From the NCBI RefSeq assembly GCF_023204875.1, contig NZ_CP096247.1, positions 1,984,001 to 2,048,000 on the forward strand: a stretch of 64,000 nt of DNA. Reading direction: 5' to 3'. The notes beneath the pieces are model-generated. The model had not been told where the DNA came from. It did not search any database and worked only from the letters and a program-made list of their open reading frames with translations. Positions 6,020 through 11,580 of this stretch are shown here, piece after piece. The stretch's first letter is position 1. The number at the start of each line of letters is the position of its first letter. A program made the translations under genes and the position numbers. This DNA comes from Prevotella sp. E15-22. GTDB lineage: Bacteria > Bacteroidota > Bacteroidia > Bacteroidales > Bacteroidaceae.

Positions 6020-7864
6020 TTATTTTACCACAACTTTCTTAACGACCTTGCCTTGACGTAATAGATAGATGCCTGATTGTAAACCCTCCATCTTAGCGCC
6101 ACAATAGCGACCTGAGAGTGTATATACTTGATAGGCTTTCGTCATATCAACCGCTACATCGGCAATGCCGTTAGGAGCAAAGGTATAATTCAGTTTTTTG
6201 TCCATCCAGGCAATGCGTTCCTTCATATAAGTACGTACATTTTCTACCTCGGCCTGATAACTACCCCAAATACGCGGATTCTGATGCACGCCCTGATTCA
6301 TTATAGGCCAGCGGATAAAATTTAAATTCTGAGATTGCTGCAATGCATTTTCTAAAGAGTCAATATAGGCCAACATATATTCCTCTGTCAATCCGCTTTG
6401 ACGTGCCTCAGCCCAAATCTCTGCTAACAGAGATTTGGCATCAACATCATTCACCACGATTTCATCCACAAAATTACGCATGTTGCCTGTACAACTTCCA
6501 TAACTTCTATAGATATAGTCTTTCTTACTGTTAATAGGATAGGTACGATTATCATTTTCAAACGCCAAGTCAAAGTCCCAAACGGGACCTGTATACATCA
6601 TATCATCGCCACGCTCTTTATACATAAACATGCTCCAATAGGTATCTGTGTTACCCGACAATTCCCCCACTAGGAAATGTCGCAGAAAGCTGTTAAGGTC
6701 CAAATAACTCTTCCATTGTACCTCCATTTTATTAAAATAGTTCATAATATAATTTTTCTGCGCAATCGTTATACTGTCCTCGTCTGGCGACTTAATAGTG
6801 ACGGGAGTACCTTTCGTTGATCTGAACCACGAATTTTCCTGGTCAGCATATGCATCAACCTCCACGAAATAACCTCCTGTTAAGGCTGTTCCTTCATTGT
6901 CTTGCGAGGTCATTTCGGTGATATTGACGCGGTTCTTATTAATATTCACTTGATCACACAACTGATAACAGCCCTTATATTCACCATTCAATATCACATC
7001 AACAGCTGCACCAAAAGGAGTATACGTCATACCTAATCGACGACTCAACTCAAAAGCCAACAAATTACGCATCAACGTTTTATCGCCATAATTATTTATT
7101 AATGTCCACTTCTTGGCCTTTGCAGGAGCATCAAGCACACGCTGTTTCTTGTCAAACTTAATACGATATGGTTTCTTGGGAAAAGAGCGTGAGAAGTTCC
7201 CCCTCTCACGTATCGTTCCAGACTCAGAAAGTAACTTGGTGCCATTATCAGAAATGATTGTCAATTGCGATACAATTTGATGTTTTTTATCATAAGGAAT
7301 CTCGTTGTCCTGCGTATGGATGCTTACAGTGGGCAGATTCGTCAACTGATACAGGCTACTATCGTTACCCACTCCCTGATAGCCATAGAACTCCAACTCA
7401 GCAATATTGCATCGGGCATCAGAAGGCCCCACATACCTAACATAGCGAAAGCCACGGGAACATTGGACATCGGCATATGACATCAGTCCATTTTGTCCCT
7501 TTTCTGTTATAACATAAATAGGTAAGGCATCCATAAAATCCTCACGATTGGCTCCCTCGAAGACACCAAGAAGAATACGTTTATCACCTTGGCCATCTTT
7601 TCGTGGCGACCAGCCCACCCTTGTAATGACATGAGATTCACCTAAATCCAACCCGACCCAAGTATAACTTCTTTCCCACGAGGCAAAATACGTATTCAAG
7701 TCTCCATCAAAAGCATTCATACAAGTGTTGACCGTAGTCGATTTACTGAAATCACCATAGTCCACAGTTTCCTTGGTGCCTATTACCGCTCCCGTCAACT
7801 TTTCATCAGCAAAAGCTATCTGACATATTGCCAGCAAAAGTATTGTACTGTATATCTTATTCAT
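6020..7864 (-). CDS. secreted CotH-kinase-like protein with discoidin (F5/8 C) domain and T9SS-type C-terminus
   Basis: A 614-residue protein. Residues 1-19 form a Sec signal peptide (hydrophobic LLLAIC core, cut after AFA). Residues about 30-165 resemble an F5/8 type C (discoidin) carbohydrate-binding fold (FDGDLNTYFASW, WVGLDLGESHVITRVG). Residues about 195-510 match the CotH family: RGNFSRSFPKKPYRIKF, VILNGEYKGCYQL, and GPVWDFDLAFEN with the metal-binding acidic residues of the kinase-like fold. The last ~45 residues (VYTLSGR, SGIYLLRQGK, ending VVVK) look like a type IX secretion sorting domain, so the protein is probably displayed or released outside the cell. It stands alone; whether it phosphorylates proteins, as Bacillus CotH does, is inference. 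Confidence 0.82.
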   Translation of the reverse strand: MNKIYSTILLLAICQIAFADEKLTGAVIGTKETVDYGDFSKSTTVNTCMNAFDGDLNTYFASWERSYTWVGLDLGESHVITRVGWSPRKDGQGDKRILLGVFEGANREDFMDALPIYVITEKGQNGLMSYADVQCSRGFRYVRYVGPSDARCNIAELEFYGYQGVGNDSSLYQLTNLPTVSIHTQDNEIPYDKKHQIVSQLTIISDNGTKLLSESGTIRERGNFSRSFPKKPYRIKFDKKQRVLDAPAKAKKWTLINNYGDKTLMRNLLAFELSRRLGMTYTPFGAAVDVILNGEYKGCYQLCDQVNINKNRVNITEMTSQDNEGTALTGGYFVEVDAYADQENSWFRSTKGTPVTIKSPDEDSITIAQKNYIMNYFNKMEVQWKSYLDLNSFLRHFLVGELSGNTDTYWSMFMYKERGDDMMYTGPVWDFDLAFENDNRTYPINSKKDYIYRSYGSCTGNMRNFVDEIVVNDVDAKSLLAEIWAEARQSGLTEEYMLAYIDSLENALQQSQNLNFIRWPIMNQGVHQNPRIWGSYQAEVENVRTYMKERIAWMDKKLNYTFAPNGIADVAVDMTKAYQVYTLSGRYCGAKMEGLQSGIYLLRQGKVVKKVVVK

Positions 7865-8013
7865 TATTGCCTCGATTCAAATTATTTATATATAATTTTA
7901 AATAGCAAGATTAAAGAATAACACCCAGAAAAAAAACGAGTCTATTCCAACGTTTCTCACCTATATTTATATTTTCAATCAACATAATGACCCATTAATT
8001 ATAAATTCAAATG

Positions 8014-8021
8014 CAAAGTTA
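8014..8021 (-). promoter_or_regulatory. possible -7 element for the CotH-like gene
   Basis: Read on the reverse strand this is TAACTTTG, about 150 nt upstream of the CotH-like start. No clear TTTG is found 19-21 nt further upstream, so only the -7 is supported. The leader between them is AT-rich and shows no structure I could assign. Confidence 0.35.
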
Positions 8022-8090
8022 CATAATTTCTGTCAAAAAGAATTCTGTTTAGGTAAATATCTTGAAAAAAGCAAAAAAAAAATGTATTGA

Positions 8091-8390
8091 AATCAGAAAA
8101 AGTCAAACTATATCAAGATCAGCATGACAGAGTGTGGAGATCCCAAGGAGAATGCAGTAGCCGAAAGTGTCAACGGCATTGTCAAGAACGAATTGCTTAT
8201 GGACATGTCGTTTTTCTCTATTGATGAGGTAAAAAGAGCCCTGAAAGTAGCTATTGACTTCTATAACAACGAGCGTCCACATATGAGCCTTGACTGGAAA
8301 ACGCCAGCTCAGGCTGCTCTCTGTACTGGCGAATTGAAGAAGAAATGGAAGAGTCACAGAGAAATTGCACTCAAAGCTTTGGCTGCATAA
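8091..8390 (+). pseudogene. IS3-family transposase (orfB integrase core), 3' remnant
   Basis: The translated stretch (SMTECGDPKENAVAESV, then KNELL and FYNNERPHMSLDWKTPAQA) is the C-terminal part of the DDE integrase core of IS3-group transposases, including the final catalytic Glu (KENAVAES). An in-frame TGA at 8088-8090 closes the frame, and the N-terminal two-thirds, with the first two catalytic Asp, is absent; an ATG at 8124 is internal. The remnant therefore cannot encode an active enzyme. Homology seems to begin near 8106. No intact terminal inverted repeat pair was recognised. It marks an old insertion or deletion boundary beside the repeat array that follows. Confidence 0.85.
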
Positions 8391-8409
8391 AATTAAATAG
8401 GTATCTTTG
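8378..8409 (+). promoter_or_regulatory. promoter reading out of the IS3 remnant toward the hairpin array
   Basis: TTTG at 8378-8381, inside the last codons of the transposase remnant, and TATCTTTG at 8402-8409 are 20 nt apart, a full match to the Bacteroidota promoter. No long open reading frame follows until 8761, so a transcript starting near 8416 would run through the array at 8553-8660. Confidence 0.5.
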
Positions 8410-8552
8410 CATCAGAATAGGTGTAAACCCGATTTATAACTAATTCCAAATAGAGTCAACGTGAAATAAAAATTAAGTTTAATTGAGTCAACTCTTATCA
8501 TTAATTAGACTGGAAGTAGGCAAGTAAAAACGTTAAACTACACCCCTCAAAA
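8410..8552. other. non-coding stretch between IS remnant and array
   Basis: AT-rich, no open reading frame of note. The octamer GAGTCAAC occurs twice, at about 8453 and 8484. This may include the decayed right end of the insertion sequence, but I could not define an inverted repeat. Confidence 0.4.
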
Positions 8553-8660
8553 CTGTTTCAACGTTCGAAACAGAGTGTTTCCTTGTGAGAAACACTTTAT
8601 TTCGATAATGGAAACAAAGTGTTTCTATAGGAGAAACAAAGTGTTTCCATAGGGGAAACA
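8553..8660. repeat. array of five 22-bp inverted-repeat units with variable 7-nt loops
   Basis: Units begin at 8553, 8575, 8597, 8619 and 8641, an exact 22-bp period. Each reads (N)TGTTTC, seven variable bases, GAAACA(N)(N); unit 3 has TTATTTC in the left arm. The loops are AACGTTC, CTTGTGA, GATAATG, TATAGGA and CATAGGG. Seen from the other phase, it is a 15-bp near-palindrome GAAACAAAGTGTTTC separated by 7-bp spacers; a worn sixth copy follows at about 8664-8680. It could be a tandem operator, a structured RNA or a selfish repeat; no function is established. Confidence 0.85.
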
Positions 8661-8699
8661 AAATGGAAACACTTTTCCAATTTATTTCTACACAAATAA

Positions 8700-8731
8700 T
8701 TTGGAAAACGTCAGGAAATTTATTACCTTTG
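8700..8731 (+). promoter_or_regulatory. promoter of the four-Cys small protein gene
   Basis: TTTG at 8700-8703 and TACCTTTG at 8724-8731 with a 20-nt spacer. It lies between the hairpin array and the start at 8761, so the array occupies roughly -60 to -185 relative to this promoter. Confidence 0.7.
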
Positions 8732-8760
8732 CATGCGTATAACAAAAAGTGAAAGAAACC

Positions 8761-9195
8761 ATGAATAAAGTAAACCAACTTAAGCAGAAGGCAGATCATT
8801 ACTTGCCTTGTTTTATTAATGAATGTAAGCGTCACGACAGTTGCCTGCACTGGTTGATTAACCCTTACGTTAGTGGCGATACGCTGAACGTGATGAGTGT
8901 AAATCCAAGGAATCCTGAAGTTAATTCAAACCACTGTCCTTTCTATCGCGAGAACAAGATTGTAAAGAATGCGAAAGGTATGAATCACCTGTTGGACGAG
9001 ATTCCCTATAATGATGCGAAAGCCATTAAGAGGGAGTTGATTAGAGTCTTCTCGCGCAAACGTTTCTACGAGTATCGCAACGGCACACGCCTTATCTCAC
9101 CTGAGCAGCAGGCGATAATTGCCCAGATTTGCAAAGCGCATGGCTGGAACAAAAAAGTGACGTACGATGGGTGGGAAGAGGACTATATGTGGTAA
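8761..9195 (+). CDS. small four-cysteine protein, Bacteroidales family (DUF6078-like)
   Basis: 144 residues from the ATG at 8761; a GTG at 8749 would add four. The N-terminal third has Cys spaced as C-x4-C-x5-C (CFINECKRHDSC) plus a fourth in NHCPFYR, suggesting a zinc or iron-sulfur site. The C-terminal half is basic and helical (RELIRVFSRKRFYEYRNGT, SPEQQAIIAQICKAHGW) and could form a nucleic-acid-binding helix-turn-helix; it ends in an acidic aromatic tail. I recall similar proteins under the name DUF6078 in Prevotella and Bacteroides, but this was not checked. Function unknown. It has its own promoter and sits directly after the 22-bp array, which makes a functional link with the array worth testing. 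Confidence 0.65.
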   Translation: MNKVNQLKQKADHYLPCFINECKRHDSCLHWLINPYVSGDTLNVMSVNPRNPEVNSNHCPFYRENKIVKNAKGMNHLLDEIPYNDAKAIKRELIRVFSRKRFYEYRNGTRLISPEQQAIIAQICKAHGWNKKVTYDGWEEDYMW

Positions 9196-9218
9196 TCTGT
9201 AATATAAATCCAAATAAA

Positions 9219-9250
9219 TTTGGTTTTTTACTCACTTAATCGTACCTTTG
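9219..9250 (+). promoter_or_regulatory. upstream glnN promoter
   Basis: TTTG at 9219-9222 and TACCTTTG at 9243-9250, spacer 20 nt. Transcription from here would give a leader of about 100 nt before the glnN start. Confidence 0.6.
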
Positions 9251-9305
9251 ATTGCAAATCGAAGGTAGGCTGCATCTCGGAAATAAAAGAAAAAATACCA
9301 TTTTC

Positions 9306-9336
9306 TTTGTATTTCGCTCGATTTGCACTACCTTTG
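9306..9336 (+). promoter_or_regulatory. proximal glnN promoter
   Basis: TTTG at 9306-9309 and TACCTTTG at 9329-9336, spacer 19 nt. A start about 6 nt downstream would leave a leader of only about 15 nt. Two consecutive full promoter matches suggest alternative transcription starts, possibly a nitrogen-responsive choice, but no regulator site was identified. Confidence 0.6.
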
Positions 9337-9357
9337 CAGGCAAAATCAATGCAAATG

Positions 9358-11580
9358 ATGGCAAACAACTTAAGATTTCAGGTAGTAGAAGAGGCGTTTA
9401 AGAAGCACGCCCTTGAGGTAAAGGTGCCCGCAGAGCGCCCTTCAGAGTATTTTGGCAAGTATGTATTCAATCGTCAGAAGATGTACAAATACCTGCCAAA
9501 GGACATCTACGACAAGATGATTGATGTGATGGATAACGGTGCCCGTCTGGACCGCTCGATTGCCGATGCAGTGGCTGCAGGCATGAAGCAGTGGGCCCTG
9601 GAGATGGGTGTGACACACTATACGCACTGGTTCCAGCCCCTGACCGAGGGTACAGCCGAGAAGCACGACGCCTTCGTGGAGCACGACGGTAAGGGCGGCA
9701 TGATTGAGAAGTTCTCAGGCAAGCTGCTGGTGCAGCAGGAGCCCGATGCCAGTTCGTTCCCCAACGGTGGTATCCGCAACACGTTTGAGGCTCGCGGCTA
9801 CTCAGCCTGGGATCCCACATCGCCCGTGTTTATCATCGACGACACACTGTGTATCCCCACCATCTTTATTGCCTATACGGGCGAGGCCCTCGACTATAAG
9901 GCTCCCCTACTCCGTGCTATCCATGCCGTGAGCAAGGCCGCCAAGGATGTTTGCCAGTATTTCTACGACGACGTGACCAAGGTGCAGGTGAACCTGGGTT
10001 GGGAACAGGAGTACTTCCTCGTGGACGAGGGCCTCTACTCTGCCCGTCCTGACCTGCTGATGACCGGCAGAACACTGATGGGTCACGAGAGTGCCAAGAA
10101 CCAGCAGATGGACGACCACTACTTTGGTACCATCCCCGACCGTGTGCAGGCCTTTATGAAGGACCTCGAGATTCAGTCGCTGGAGTTGGCCATCCCTGTG
10201 AAGACACGCCACAACGAGGTGGCCCCCAACCAGTTTGAGTTGGCCCCCATCTTCGAAGAGTGTAACCTCGCCGTTGACCACAACATGCTGTTGATGAGCT
10301 TGATGAAGAAGGTGGCTCGCAAACATGGTTTTCGCGTGCTGCTCCACGAAAAGCCCTTCGACGGCATCAACGGCAGCGGTAAGCACTGCAACTGGAGTCT
10401 GACTGCAATGCACAATGCACAATGTACAATGCACAATGAGTCATCTACACTGCTGCACGCCCCTGGCACCACGCCAGAAGAGAACCTGCGCTTCATCACC
10501 TTCATCGTTGAGACGCTGATGGCCGTATATCATCACAATGGACTGCTGAAGGCATCGATCATGAGTGCCACCAACGCCCACCGTCTGGGCGGCAACGAGG
10601 CACCTCCCGCTATCATCAGCTCGTTCCTGGGCACACAGCTCACCGAGGTGCTGAACCATATCGAGACATCAAAGACCAACGAACTGTTCAACCTGAAGGG
10701 TAAGCAGGGCATGGAGATTGACATTGCCCAGATTCCTGACCTCGTGGTGGACAATACCGACCGCAACCGCACGTCACCCTTTGCCTTCACAGGCAACCGC
10801 TTCGAGTTCCGTGCACCTGGTTCCAGCGTGAACTGCGCCAGCGCTATGATTGCCCTGAACGCCGCCATGGCCGAGGCCCTGAACTCATTCAAAGAGCGTG
10901 TGGACGCCAAGATTGCCAAGGGCGAGGATAAGATTCAGGCCTTGCTCGAGGTACTGAAAGACGACGTGAAGACCTGCAAACCCATCCGCTTTGATGGCAA
11001 CGGCTACTCAGAGGAATGGGTAGAGGAAGCCGCCAAGCGTGGACTCGACGTGGAGAAGTCGTGCCCCGTGATCTTCGAGCACTACCTCGACGACTCGAGC
11101 ATCAAGATGTTTGAGAGTACCAAGGTGATGAACAAGAAGGAGTTGGAAGCCCGCAACGAGGTGAAATGGGAGATGTACGTGAAGACCGTTCAGATTGAAG
11201 CACGCGTGCTGGGCGATTTAGCGATGAACCACATCATCCCTGTGGCCACCCACTATCAGAGTAAGCTCATCAAAAACGTACAGGGCATGAAGGAAGTGTT
11301 TGCCGCAGAGCGAGCAGAACGCCTGTCAACCCGTAATATGAAACTCATCGAGGAGATTGCCGAGCGCACAGAGAAGATTGAGCAGTTGGCCGAGGACCTC
11401 ACTGAGGCACGCCGTGTGGCCAACCGCATTGAATGCATCCACAAGCGCGCCATTGCCTATCACGACACCGTATGTCCGCTGATGGAGGCTATCCGCAAGC
11501 AGATTGACAAGCTGGAACTCATCGTGGAAGACGGTCTGTGGACACTACCCAAATACCGTGAACTGCTGTTCATCAGATAA
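9358..11580 (+). CDS. glnN: glutamine synthetase type III
   Basis: About 740 residues, the size of GSIII, which joins ammonia to glutamate with ATP. The start is placed at MANNLRFQVVEE; upstream codons in frame overlap the promoters, and ATGs at 9349 and 9355 are alternatives. Visible family motifs are EYFGKYVFNRQKM near the N-terminus, GWEQEYFLVDEG, RHNEVAPNQFELAP, GSGKHCNWSL (ATP/glutamate site) and ATNAHRLGGNEAPPAIIS, with NRTSPFAFTGNRFEFRAPGS. Just after NWSL, residues 351-360 (MHNAQCTMHN) are encoded by a 7-bp tandem repeat and replace a normally shorter loop; the frame stays open. cysE follows 11 nt later, probably co-transcribed. G+C is clearly higher than in the preceding polysaccharide cluster. 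Confidence 0.95.
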   Translation: MANNLRFQVVEEAFKKHALEVKVPAERPSEYFGKYVFNRQKMYKYLPKDIYDKMIDVMDNGARLDRSIADAVAAGMKQWALEMGVTHYTHWFQPLTEGTAEKHDAFVEHDGKGGMIEKFSGKLLVQQEPDASSFPNGGIRNTFEARGYSAWDPTSPVFIIDDTLCIPTIFIAYTGEALDYKAPLLRAIHAVSKAAKDVCQYFYDDVTKVQVNLGWEQEYFLVDEGLYSARPDLLMTGRTLMGHESAKNQQMDDHYFGTIPDRVQAFMKDLEIQSLELAIPVKTRHNEVAPNQFELAPIFEECNLAVDHNMLLMSLMKKVARKHGFRVLLHEKPFDGINGSGKHCNWSLTAMHNAQCTMHNESSTLLHAPGTTPEENLRFITFIVETLMAVYHHNGLLKASIMSATNAHRLGGNEAPPAIISSFLGTQLTEVLNHIETSKTNELFNLKGKQGMEIDIAQIPDLVVDNTDRNRTSPFAFTGNRFEFRAPGSSVNCASAMIALNAAMAEALNSFKERVDAKIAKGEDKIQALLEVLKDDVKTCKPIRFDGNGYSEEWVEEAAKRGLDVEKSCPVIFEHYLDDSSIKMFESTKVMNKKELEARNEVKWEMYVKTVQIEARVLGDLAMNHIIPVATHYQSKLIKNVQGMKEVFAAERAERLSTRNMKLIEEIAERTEKIEQLAEDLTEARRVANRIECIHKRAIAYHDTVCPLMEAIRKQIDKLELIVEDGLWTLPKYRELLFIR
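10408..10438 (+). repeat. 7-bp tandem repeat inside glnN
   Basis: Four consecutive copies of ATGCACA (third copy ATGTACA) followed by a partial ATG. The repeat encodes about ten residues not expected in the GSIII loop after the GKHxNWS motif. Because 7 is not a multiple of three, loss or gain of one copy would shift the frame. Confidence 0.85.

Follow-up and report, generated by a model that had tools for sequence, protein, structure and literature searches.

In a 64-kb window of the Prevotella sp. E15-22 chromosome (the whole stretch of DNA analysed, 64,000 nucleotides), a tandem array of palindromes with a period of 22 bp precedes a gene of the functionally uncharacterized DUF6078 family. 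We found that genes of this family and 22-bp arrays are recurrently associated in an arm-specific manner, and that whole arrays are copied; from the sequences we infer, in addition, that DUF6078 proteins recognize the arms. Altogether, the arrays can be read as a dispersed repeat family in partnership with DUF6078, similar to the partnership of repetitive extragenic palindromes (REPs) with REP-associated tyrosine transposases (RAYTs): a DUF6078 gene with a same-arm array at its side would encode the protein that reads the arms, and arrays would be copied to other places (probability about 0.62). An earlier note on this DNA described the array and missed the linked DUF6078 gene, the other copies, and the fact that the adjoining insertion sequence (IS) stands beside an older array.

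The window array (8554-8660) comprises five consecutive units with left arms starting at 8554, 8576, 8598, 8620 and 8642 (Table 1). The geometry of the units is 6-7-6-3, i.e. a 6-bp arm, a 7-bp loop, a 6-bp arm and a 3-bp spacer, which gives the period of 22 bp. The earlier note had described the five units, their loops and the worn arm of unit 3 (TATTTC) correctly, but placed all starts one base too far to the left. The array was called independently by Tandem Repeats Finder (8567-8662, period 22/44); it was the sole match in the window in a scan for 6-7-6-3 units with any arms (3 units, at most 4 mismatches), and a scan of periods 19-26 and loops 3-10 (at most 3 mismatches) reported just this array, including its other phase. 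Single units are only weakly enriched in the window taken alone (2 mismatches; 9 matches vs. 4.23 expected, with 9 reached by 3 of 100 shuffles), and the significance of the array is due to its exactness, tandem spacing and recurrence rather than to the single-unit count. In the complete genome, a single contig of 3,335,334 bases, there are 30 occurrences of the exact unit TGTTTC-N7-GAAACA and 34 of the two-unit pattern with at most 3 mismatches, with no matches of the reversed control in either search. These matches correspond to nine TGTTTC arrays, each with four to five recognizable units. Below, L and G numbers label loci or stretches and genomes, respectively, with G000 for the genome of E15-22 itself.

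The DUF6078 gene of the window starts 100 bp downstream of the array. As long as the link with the adjoining gene was judged on a single arm sequence it seemed to be absent (two DUF6078 genes vs. nine arrays in this genome), and it emerged when the arms were left free: 61 bp downstream of the second DUF6078 gene of the genome lies an array of 22-bp period whose arms are TTGGTA/TACCAA. Free-arm scans detected arrays at 15 of 31 DUF6078 loci with at most 3 mismatches, and 6-7-6-3 arrays of 22-bp period, often with other arms, at 37 of 61 loci with at most 4 mismatches, compared to 0 of 1220 local shuffles. The arrays lie mostly on one side of the gene only (13 upstream and 24 downstream in the 37 loci; median distance 55 bp, maximum 406 bp). 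When periods from 16 to 30 were surveyed at the 31 loci, 22 stood out (12 loci with a loop of 5 or 7, 9 with a loop of 3; other periods at most 1), and the free-arm scan of control loci of a different gene found an array at 1 of 19 (L161, a scattered array). In the reverse analysis, 11 DUF6078 open reading frames (ORFs), 10 of them strong, were identified with a custom family profile in 118 array stretches from other genomes (0.88 Mb), where about 0.36 would be expected from the rate in the genus (60 of 100 genomes with DUF6078; 123 matches in those 100 genomes). Clustering of the neighbours of 89 array loci (9 from this genome, 80 others) yielded DUF6078 and VapE-family proteins as the top two clusters, with 7 loci each. 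Of 80 listed array loci, 44 were chosen; they come from 42 genomes, 38 of which encode DUF6078, 37 of them above the cut-off (G128: sub-threshold only). G130, G138, G140 and G146 gave no match.

Comparison of the arms suggests that the arm type beside DUF6078 mostly predicts the arm type of the scattered copies. TTACCA arrays (at most 2 mismatches) were found in 12 of 100 genomes (reversed control: 0), namely in 6 of 6 genomes whose DUF6078 locus has TTACC arms vs. 6 of 94 others (Fisher 8e-7). This count includes the home arrays; copies away from home were therefore checked separately and are present in all six TTACC genomes (G017, G044, G070, G078, G091 and G060). An exact search for the ATTACC pair retrieved just 2 of 100 genomes, because the arm frame is poor, as the yield of the TTACCA frame indicates. 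TGGTA-N7-TACCA arrays (at most 1 mismatch) were detected in 14 of 100 genomes, most frequently in E15-22 (66 two-unit matches, a count only), as predicted by the arms beside its second DUF6078 gene, whose home array of about ten units can account for just a few of them. The reversed control gave 1 match (G075), and in G057 both matches are the home array. GTTTC-type arms were found beside DUF6078 in 14 of 19 arrays from genomes picked for TGTTTC arrays vs. 1 of 16 from genomes not so picked, or in 13 of 18 (p 1e-4) without the home array L226, which is itself the picked stretch L077. The Mantel test of protein vs. arm distance (r 0.29, p 2e-4, 44 loci) does not remove the effects of relatedness and sampling. 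TTACCA arrays were also observed in three genomes with no DUF6078 match (G012, G093 and G107).

A scan of GTDB genomes with the two-unit TGTTTC pattern reported at least 118 stretches (80 of them named), mainly from Prevotella, Bacteroides and their relatives, and from some metagenome-assembled genomes (MAGs) of Treponema. Within its own genus the pattern is rare: among 40 relatives, including E15-22, it was found in E15-22 and G008 only. No match to the exact two-unit TGTTTC pattern, the only arms searched there, was found in IMG/VR. Array variants exist in which both arms change together, e.g. TGTTTC/GAAACA, TATTCC/GGAATA, ATTACC/GGTAAT and TTCGGA/TCCGAA, as would be expected if a protein recognizes the arms or if they pair. 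The suggestion of the earlier note that the conserved arms reflect selection on pairing or on protein binding holds, with the arms and the 22-bp period kept in many relatives; its concern that the array might occur only here, or lose its period elsewhere, did not materialize. Slippage does act on the arrays, since at one locus of two Xylanibacter ruminicola genomes the number of units differs by exactly one (the comparison revealed gain or loss of a unit and no empty site). However, local slippage or chance has next to no probability as the full explanation, given nine arrays in one genome, the many stretches elsewhere, and the link of a single gene family to arrays that differ in their arms but not in their geometry. 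At the locus common to L077 and L129, differences were counted in 5 of 28 loop, 2 of 48 arm, 0 of 9 spacer and 13 of 300 flank bases (loops vs. flanks: p 0.012). As side observations, the DNA to the left of the array is longer by several hundred bases in X. ruminicola D31d (L263, 657-1452) than in Ga6B6 (L258, 1361-1452); three Treponema MAGs (L070, L081 and L224) contain DUF6078 together with TGTTTC-type arrays, which suggests inter-phylum transfer or MAG contamination; and a match in an archaeal MAG (L088) may be due to chance or contamination.

Six copies in the E15-22 genome (L018, L019, L020, L023, L024 and L026) have an ordered series of loops in common, read in one direction, with the first loop AACGTTG in five of them and AACGATG in L020. 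Among the 30 loops compared (one of which, in unit 5 of L023, is interrupted by an IS), 52 of 75 comparisons were alike at 6 or more of 7 bases and 4 more after reverse complementing; for the spacers, 33 of 60 comparisons were equal and 14 of 60 were exact reverse complements, while reverse-only and complement-only controls gave 0. The loop of unit 3 in the window, GATAATG, matches the CATTATC of L018, L023 and L024 exactly once it is reverse complemented. On this evidence, the segments between the inverted arms flip, and the loops are inherited along with the array when it is copied. The spacer-like diversity of loops proposed in the earlier note was not borne out by the common series, and we rejected a CRISPR-like (clustered regularly interspaced short palindromic repeats) spacer array, as the loops are only 7 bp long, have the same order in copies and are not unique acquired spacers. 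The invertible-DNA sites of Bacteroides, of the type GTTAC-N7-GTAAC, also have short arms around a 7-bp centre, but the palindromes described here form tandem 22-bp arrays. BLAST matches between the copies stop within 29 bp of the array in 11 of 15 pairs; of the remaining pairs, three have the match lengthened by a shared IS, and L020/L024 have 79 bp more in common. The arrays are therefore copied as units, partly perhaps via segmental duplication; L019/L020 and L019/L024 have additional stretches of flank in common.

DUF6078 proteins exhibit a weak resemblance to helix-turn-helix (HTH) proteins in the C-terminal half. A Pfam scan of 15 of them reported DUF6078 in all cases, and PF01797 (Y1, HUH) was absent from the 10 families matched at E ≤ 10; no histidine occupies an invariant or nearly invariant column in either of two alignments (A1 and A2). 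Comparisons with a library of viral protein structures and with the sequences of solved structures gave nothing significant, and PADLOC and PHROGs gave no match. We found no description of DUF6078 or of 22-bp palindrome arrays in the literature covered, which comprised open-access papers in PMC. We envisage the following mechanism. As their association shows, DUF6078 and the arrays belong together, with arms that differ between DUF6078 lineages and scattered arrays that mostly have the arms of a DUF6078 of their own genome. The protein would read the arms in double-stranded DNA by means of the conserved RKRxYEY helix in its weakly HTH-like half, and as 22 bp is close to two helical turns, all sites would lie on one face and could be occupied by several molecules side by side. 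More speculatively, binding could allow the array to spread within the genome as a non-autonomous element that is copied into other sites, as thought for RAYT/REP; the VapE-family (primase/helicase-like) protein encoded nearby at some loci may supply the copying reaction, and the flipped loops could be a scar of strand switching or of recombination between inverted arms.

Table 1. Features of the window discussed in the text
Feature	Position	Strand	Remark
Array unit 1	8554..8572	none	TGTTTC-AACGTTC-GAAACA
Array unit 2	8576..8594	none	TGTTTC-CTTGTGA-GAAACA
Array unit 3	8598..8616	none	TATTTC-GATAATG-GAAACA
Array unit 4	8620..8638	none	TGTTTC-TATAGGA-GAAACA
Array unit 5	8642..8660	none	TGTTTC-CATAGGG-GAAACA
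TGGAAACACTTTTCCA, partial palindrome prolonging the array edge	8664..8679	none	read from the sequence
Possible Bacteroidetes-type promoter of the DUF6078 gene	8700..8731	+	TTTG 8700-8703, TACCTTTG 8724-8731; read from the sequence
DUF6078 gene, 144 aa	8761..9195	+	PF19555 (E 7.6e-39); encodes the proposed partner of the array
IS3-family insertion sequence, 3' part	8099..8542	+	97.7% identical to the IS of L020 (444 bp compared); rve_3 / IS3 matches
C-terminal ORF of the IS transposase	8124-8390	+	within the IS 3' part

The weak HTH-like resemblance and the lack of a matched transposase domain would also suit a transcription factor or a nucleoid-type protein, with the arrays as its operators and with copies that arise by segmental duplication or IS activity, i.e. 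with no dedicated mobilization. The possible promoter of the DUF6078 gene begins 39 bp past the window array (the consensus in Bacteroidetes is TTTG-N19-21-TAnnTTTG), several scattered arrays of other genomes lie near promoter-like TGCAAAGGTA sequences by eye, and the flanks common to three loci of E15-22 point in the same direction. However, 24 of the 37 arrays lie downstream of DUF6078, one array of E15-22 is located in frame within an ORF, and arrays are copied whole with their loops, which operators would not need. We regard a regulatory role of this kind as unlikely. The ORF that contains the array (L021, 2273-3415) is conserved and has no Pfam match. Of 19 homologues read in the genus, two, from other species, have arrays in the corresponding position, each with arms of its own: TGTTCC arms in L161, where the geometry is unchanged, and GGTTTG-like arms in L162 (by eye; under the scan threshold). 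At that position no array was seen in the other 17.

The nearest analogue in working is RAYT/REP (PMC2817692), but the arrays and DUF6078 do not belong to it, since neither its transposase domain nor its foot motif was found. Like the system described here, REPtrons, as they are called, have a protein-coding gene beside palindromes and other copies scattered in the genome; one genome has several families, each paired with a gene of its own; protein and repeat coevolve; and IS elements insert at the repeats (PMC2817692, PMC1525189, PMC6006769). Like REPs and bacterial interspersed mosaic elements (BIMEs) with RAYTs (TnpA_REP, Y1/HUH), DUF6078 genes are flanked by cognate palindromes (37 of 61 loci), and cognate palindromes are scattered in the same genome (two families in E15-22; 6 of 6 TTACC genomes). 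In contrast to RAYTs, the partner protein belongs to the DUF6078 family, in which no Y1_Tnp domain was matched; the units read contain no constant GT(A/G)G foot and their 3-bp spacer varies; and the units are strictly tandem at 22 bp, with nine TGTTTC arrays in E15-22 vs. the tens to hundreds of REPs reported. A more specific proposal, to which we give slightly less than an even chance, is that these elements constitute a new protein/repeat class unrelated in sequence to RAYT/REP, with arms read in double-stranded DNA on one face, copying of whole arrays and lineage-specific arm codes; symmetric elements about 430 bp long, located between DUF6078 and a gene for a BT4734/VapE-type primase-helicase, would represent this class most completely. 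The arrays give a family of unknown function a testable role and a predicted DNA target per paralogue. If the pairing is true, DUF6078 offers a natural set of small proteins with different, readable 6-bp half-site specificities, and REP-like partnerships would have arisen independently of HUH transposases.

Analysis of the neighborhood of the 61 DUF6078 loci revealed a VapE-family protein within 1.5 kb at 23 of them, confirmed member by member, and none within that span at 38. The BT4734-like_N domain is present in 14 of the 23 neighbours, and 10 of those 14 loci have an array; the other 9 are VapE-like with DUF3874, with no BT4734-like_N in the part examined, and an array was detected at 0 of 9. 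These nine array-less loci (L182, L183, L185, L187, L195, L210, L211, L219 and L235) perhaps represent a DUF6078 subgroup with another role. One VapE-family neighbour matches PHROG families of DNA helicases/primases and the PADLOC PrimPol profile. Furthermore, TACATT-type motifs flank the array at near-fixed offsets in 26 of the 118 stretches, although several stretches represent identical or closely related genomes. In 19 of the 26 the motifs occur on both sides, in a mirrored layout of about 430 bp, and the 8-mer ATGTATAG is 88 times enriched in the TACATT-flanked stretches. In L142 and L097 the mirrored element separates a VapE-family gene from a divergently oriented DUF6078 gene. A second protein, for instance the VapE-family neighbour, may have its sites at these motifs. 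In L084, L052, L142 and others they lie about 70-190 bp from the array on both sides, with outer ends TTTTTCTCA in several, while L077, L107, L129 and L262 exhibit, by eye, a similar mirrored layout with TGACATTA-type motifs instead.

Iteron origins and VapE/PrimPol replication modules of satellites also have tandem sites of about 22 bp. By this analogy, the array could be part of an iteron-like origin, the VapE-family protein, DUF6078 and the symmetric array region could form a small replicon or satellite module, and copies without genes would be orphan origins. The VapE-family neighbours, the helicase/primase and PrimPol matches and the near-fixed flanking motifs are all in agreement with this possibility. 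Yet the arrays are palindromic, unlike those origins; most DUF6078 loci have no VapE-family neighbour in the stretch examined; and the nine TGTTTC arrays of E15-22 have no TACATT-type motifs within 400 bp. A function in replication or maintenance is rather improbable, a little more so than control of transcription.

It is very improbable that the array acts as RNA, i.e. that its transcript is a row of hairpins serving as a processing or stability element. The array segment folds far better than its shuffled versions (-48.9 kcal/mol, z -7.6), as expected for any palindrome array, but the symmetry of the arms and the presence of arrays on both sides of DUF6078, and even within a gene, speak against this reading, and neither the strict 22-bp spacing nor gene-specific arms are needed for hairpins. 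A search of Rfam 15 with positions 7800-9600 of the window gave 11 matches at E ≤ 1, none of which reached the gathering score.

The window array is separated by 11 bp from the right end of the IS3-family element. The right end of this IS has 5 matches in the genome (starts of the segment in G000, contig C1: 808979, 1992286, 2861870, 2956063 and 3142960), and 5 of 5 lie 10-11 bp from the first unit of an array; copies of the IS that have lost the right end escape this count. Apparent 3-bp target duplications are present at the 4 complete copies. In L023 the IS sits within a unit, with half a unit on its far side, whereas most insertions are at the array edge. The arrays predate the insertions. 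We rejected the possibility that the array is part of the IS, e.g. an IS3-derived miniature inverted-repeat transposable element (MITE), as the IS has invariable ends but is separated from the array by 10-11 bp that vary, arrays face the IS in both orientations, and 4 of 9 arrays have no match to the IS right end. IS1397, ISKpn1 and others target REP palindromes (PMC1525189). The IS3-family element, which ends at arrays in 5 of 5 copies found, resembles IS1397, ISKpn1 and ISPsy8 in this respect, but its target is a 22-bp array and its insertion is mostly at the edge of the array, with one insertion, in L023, inside a unit.
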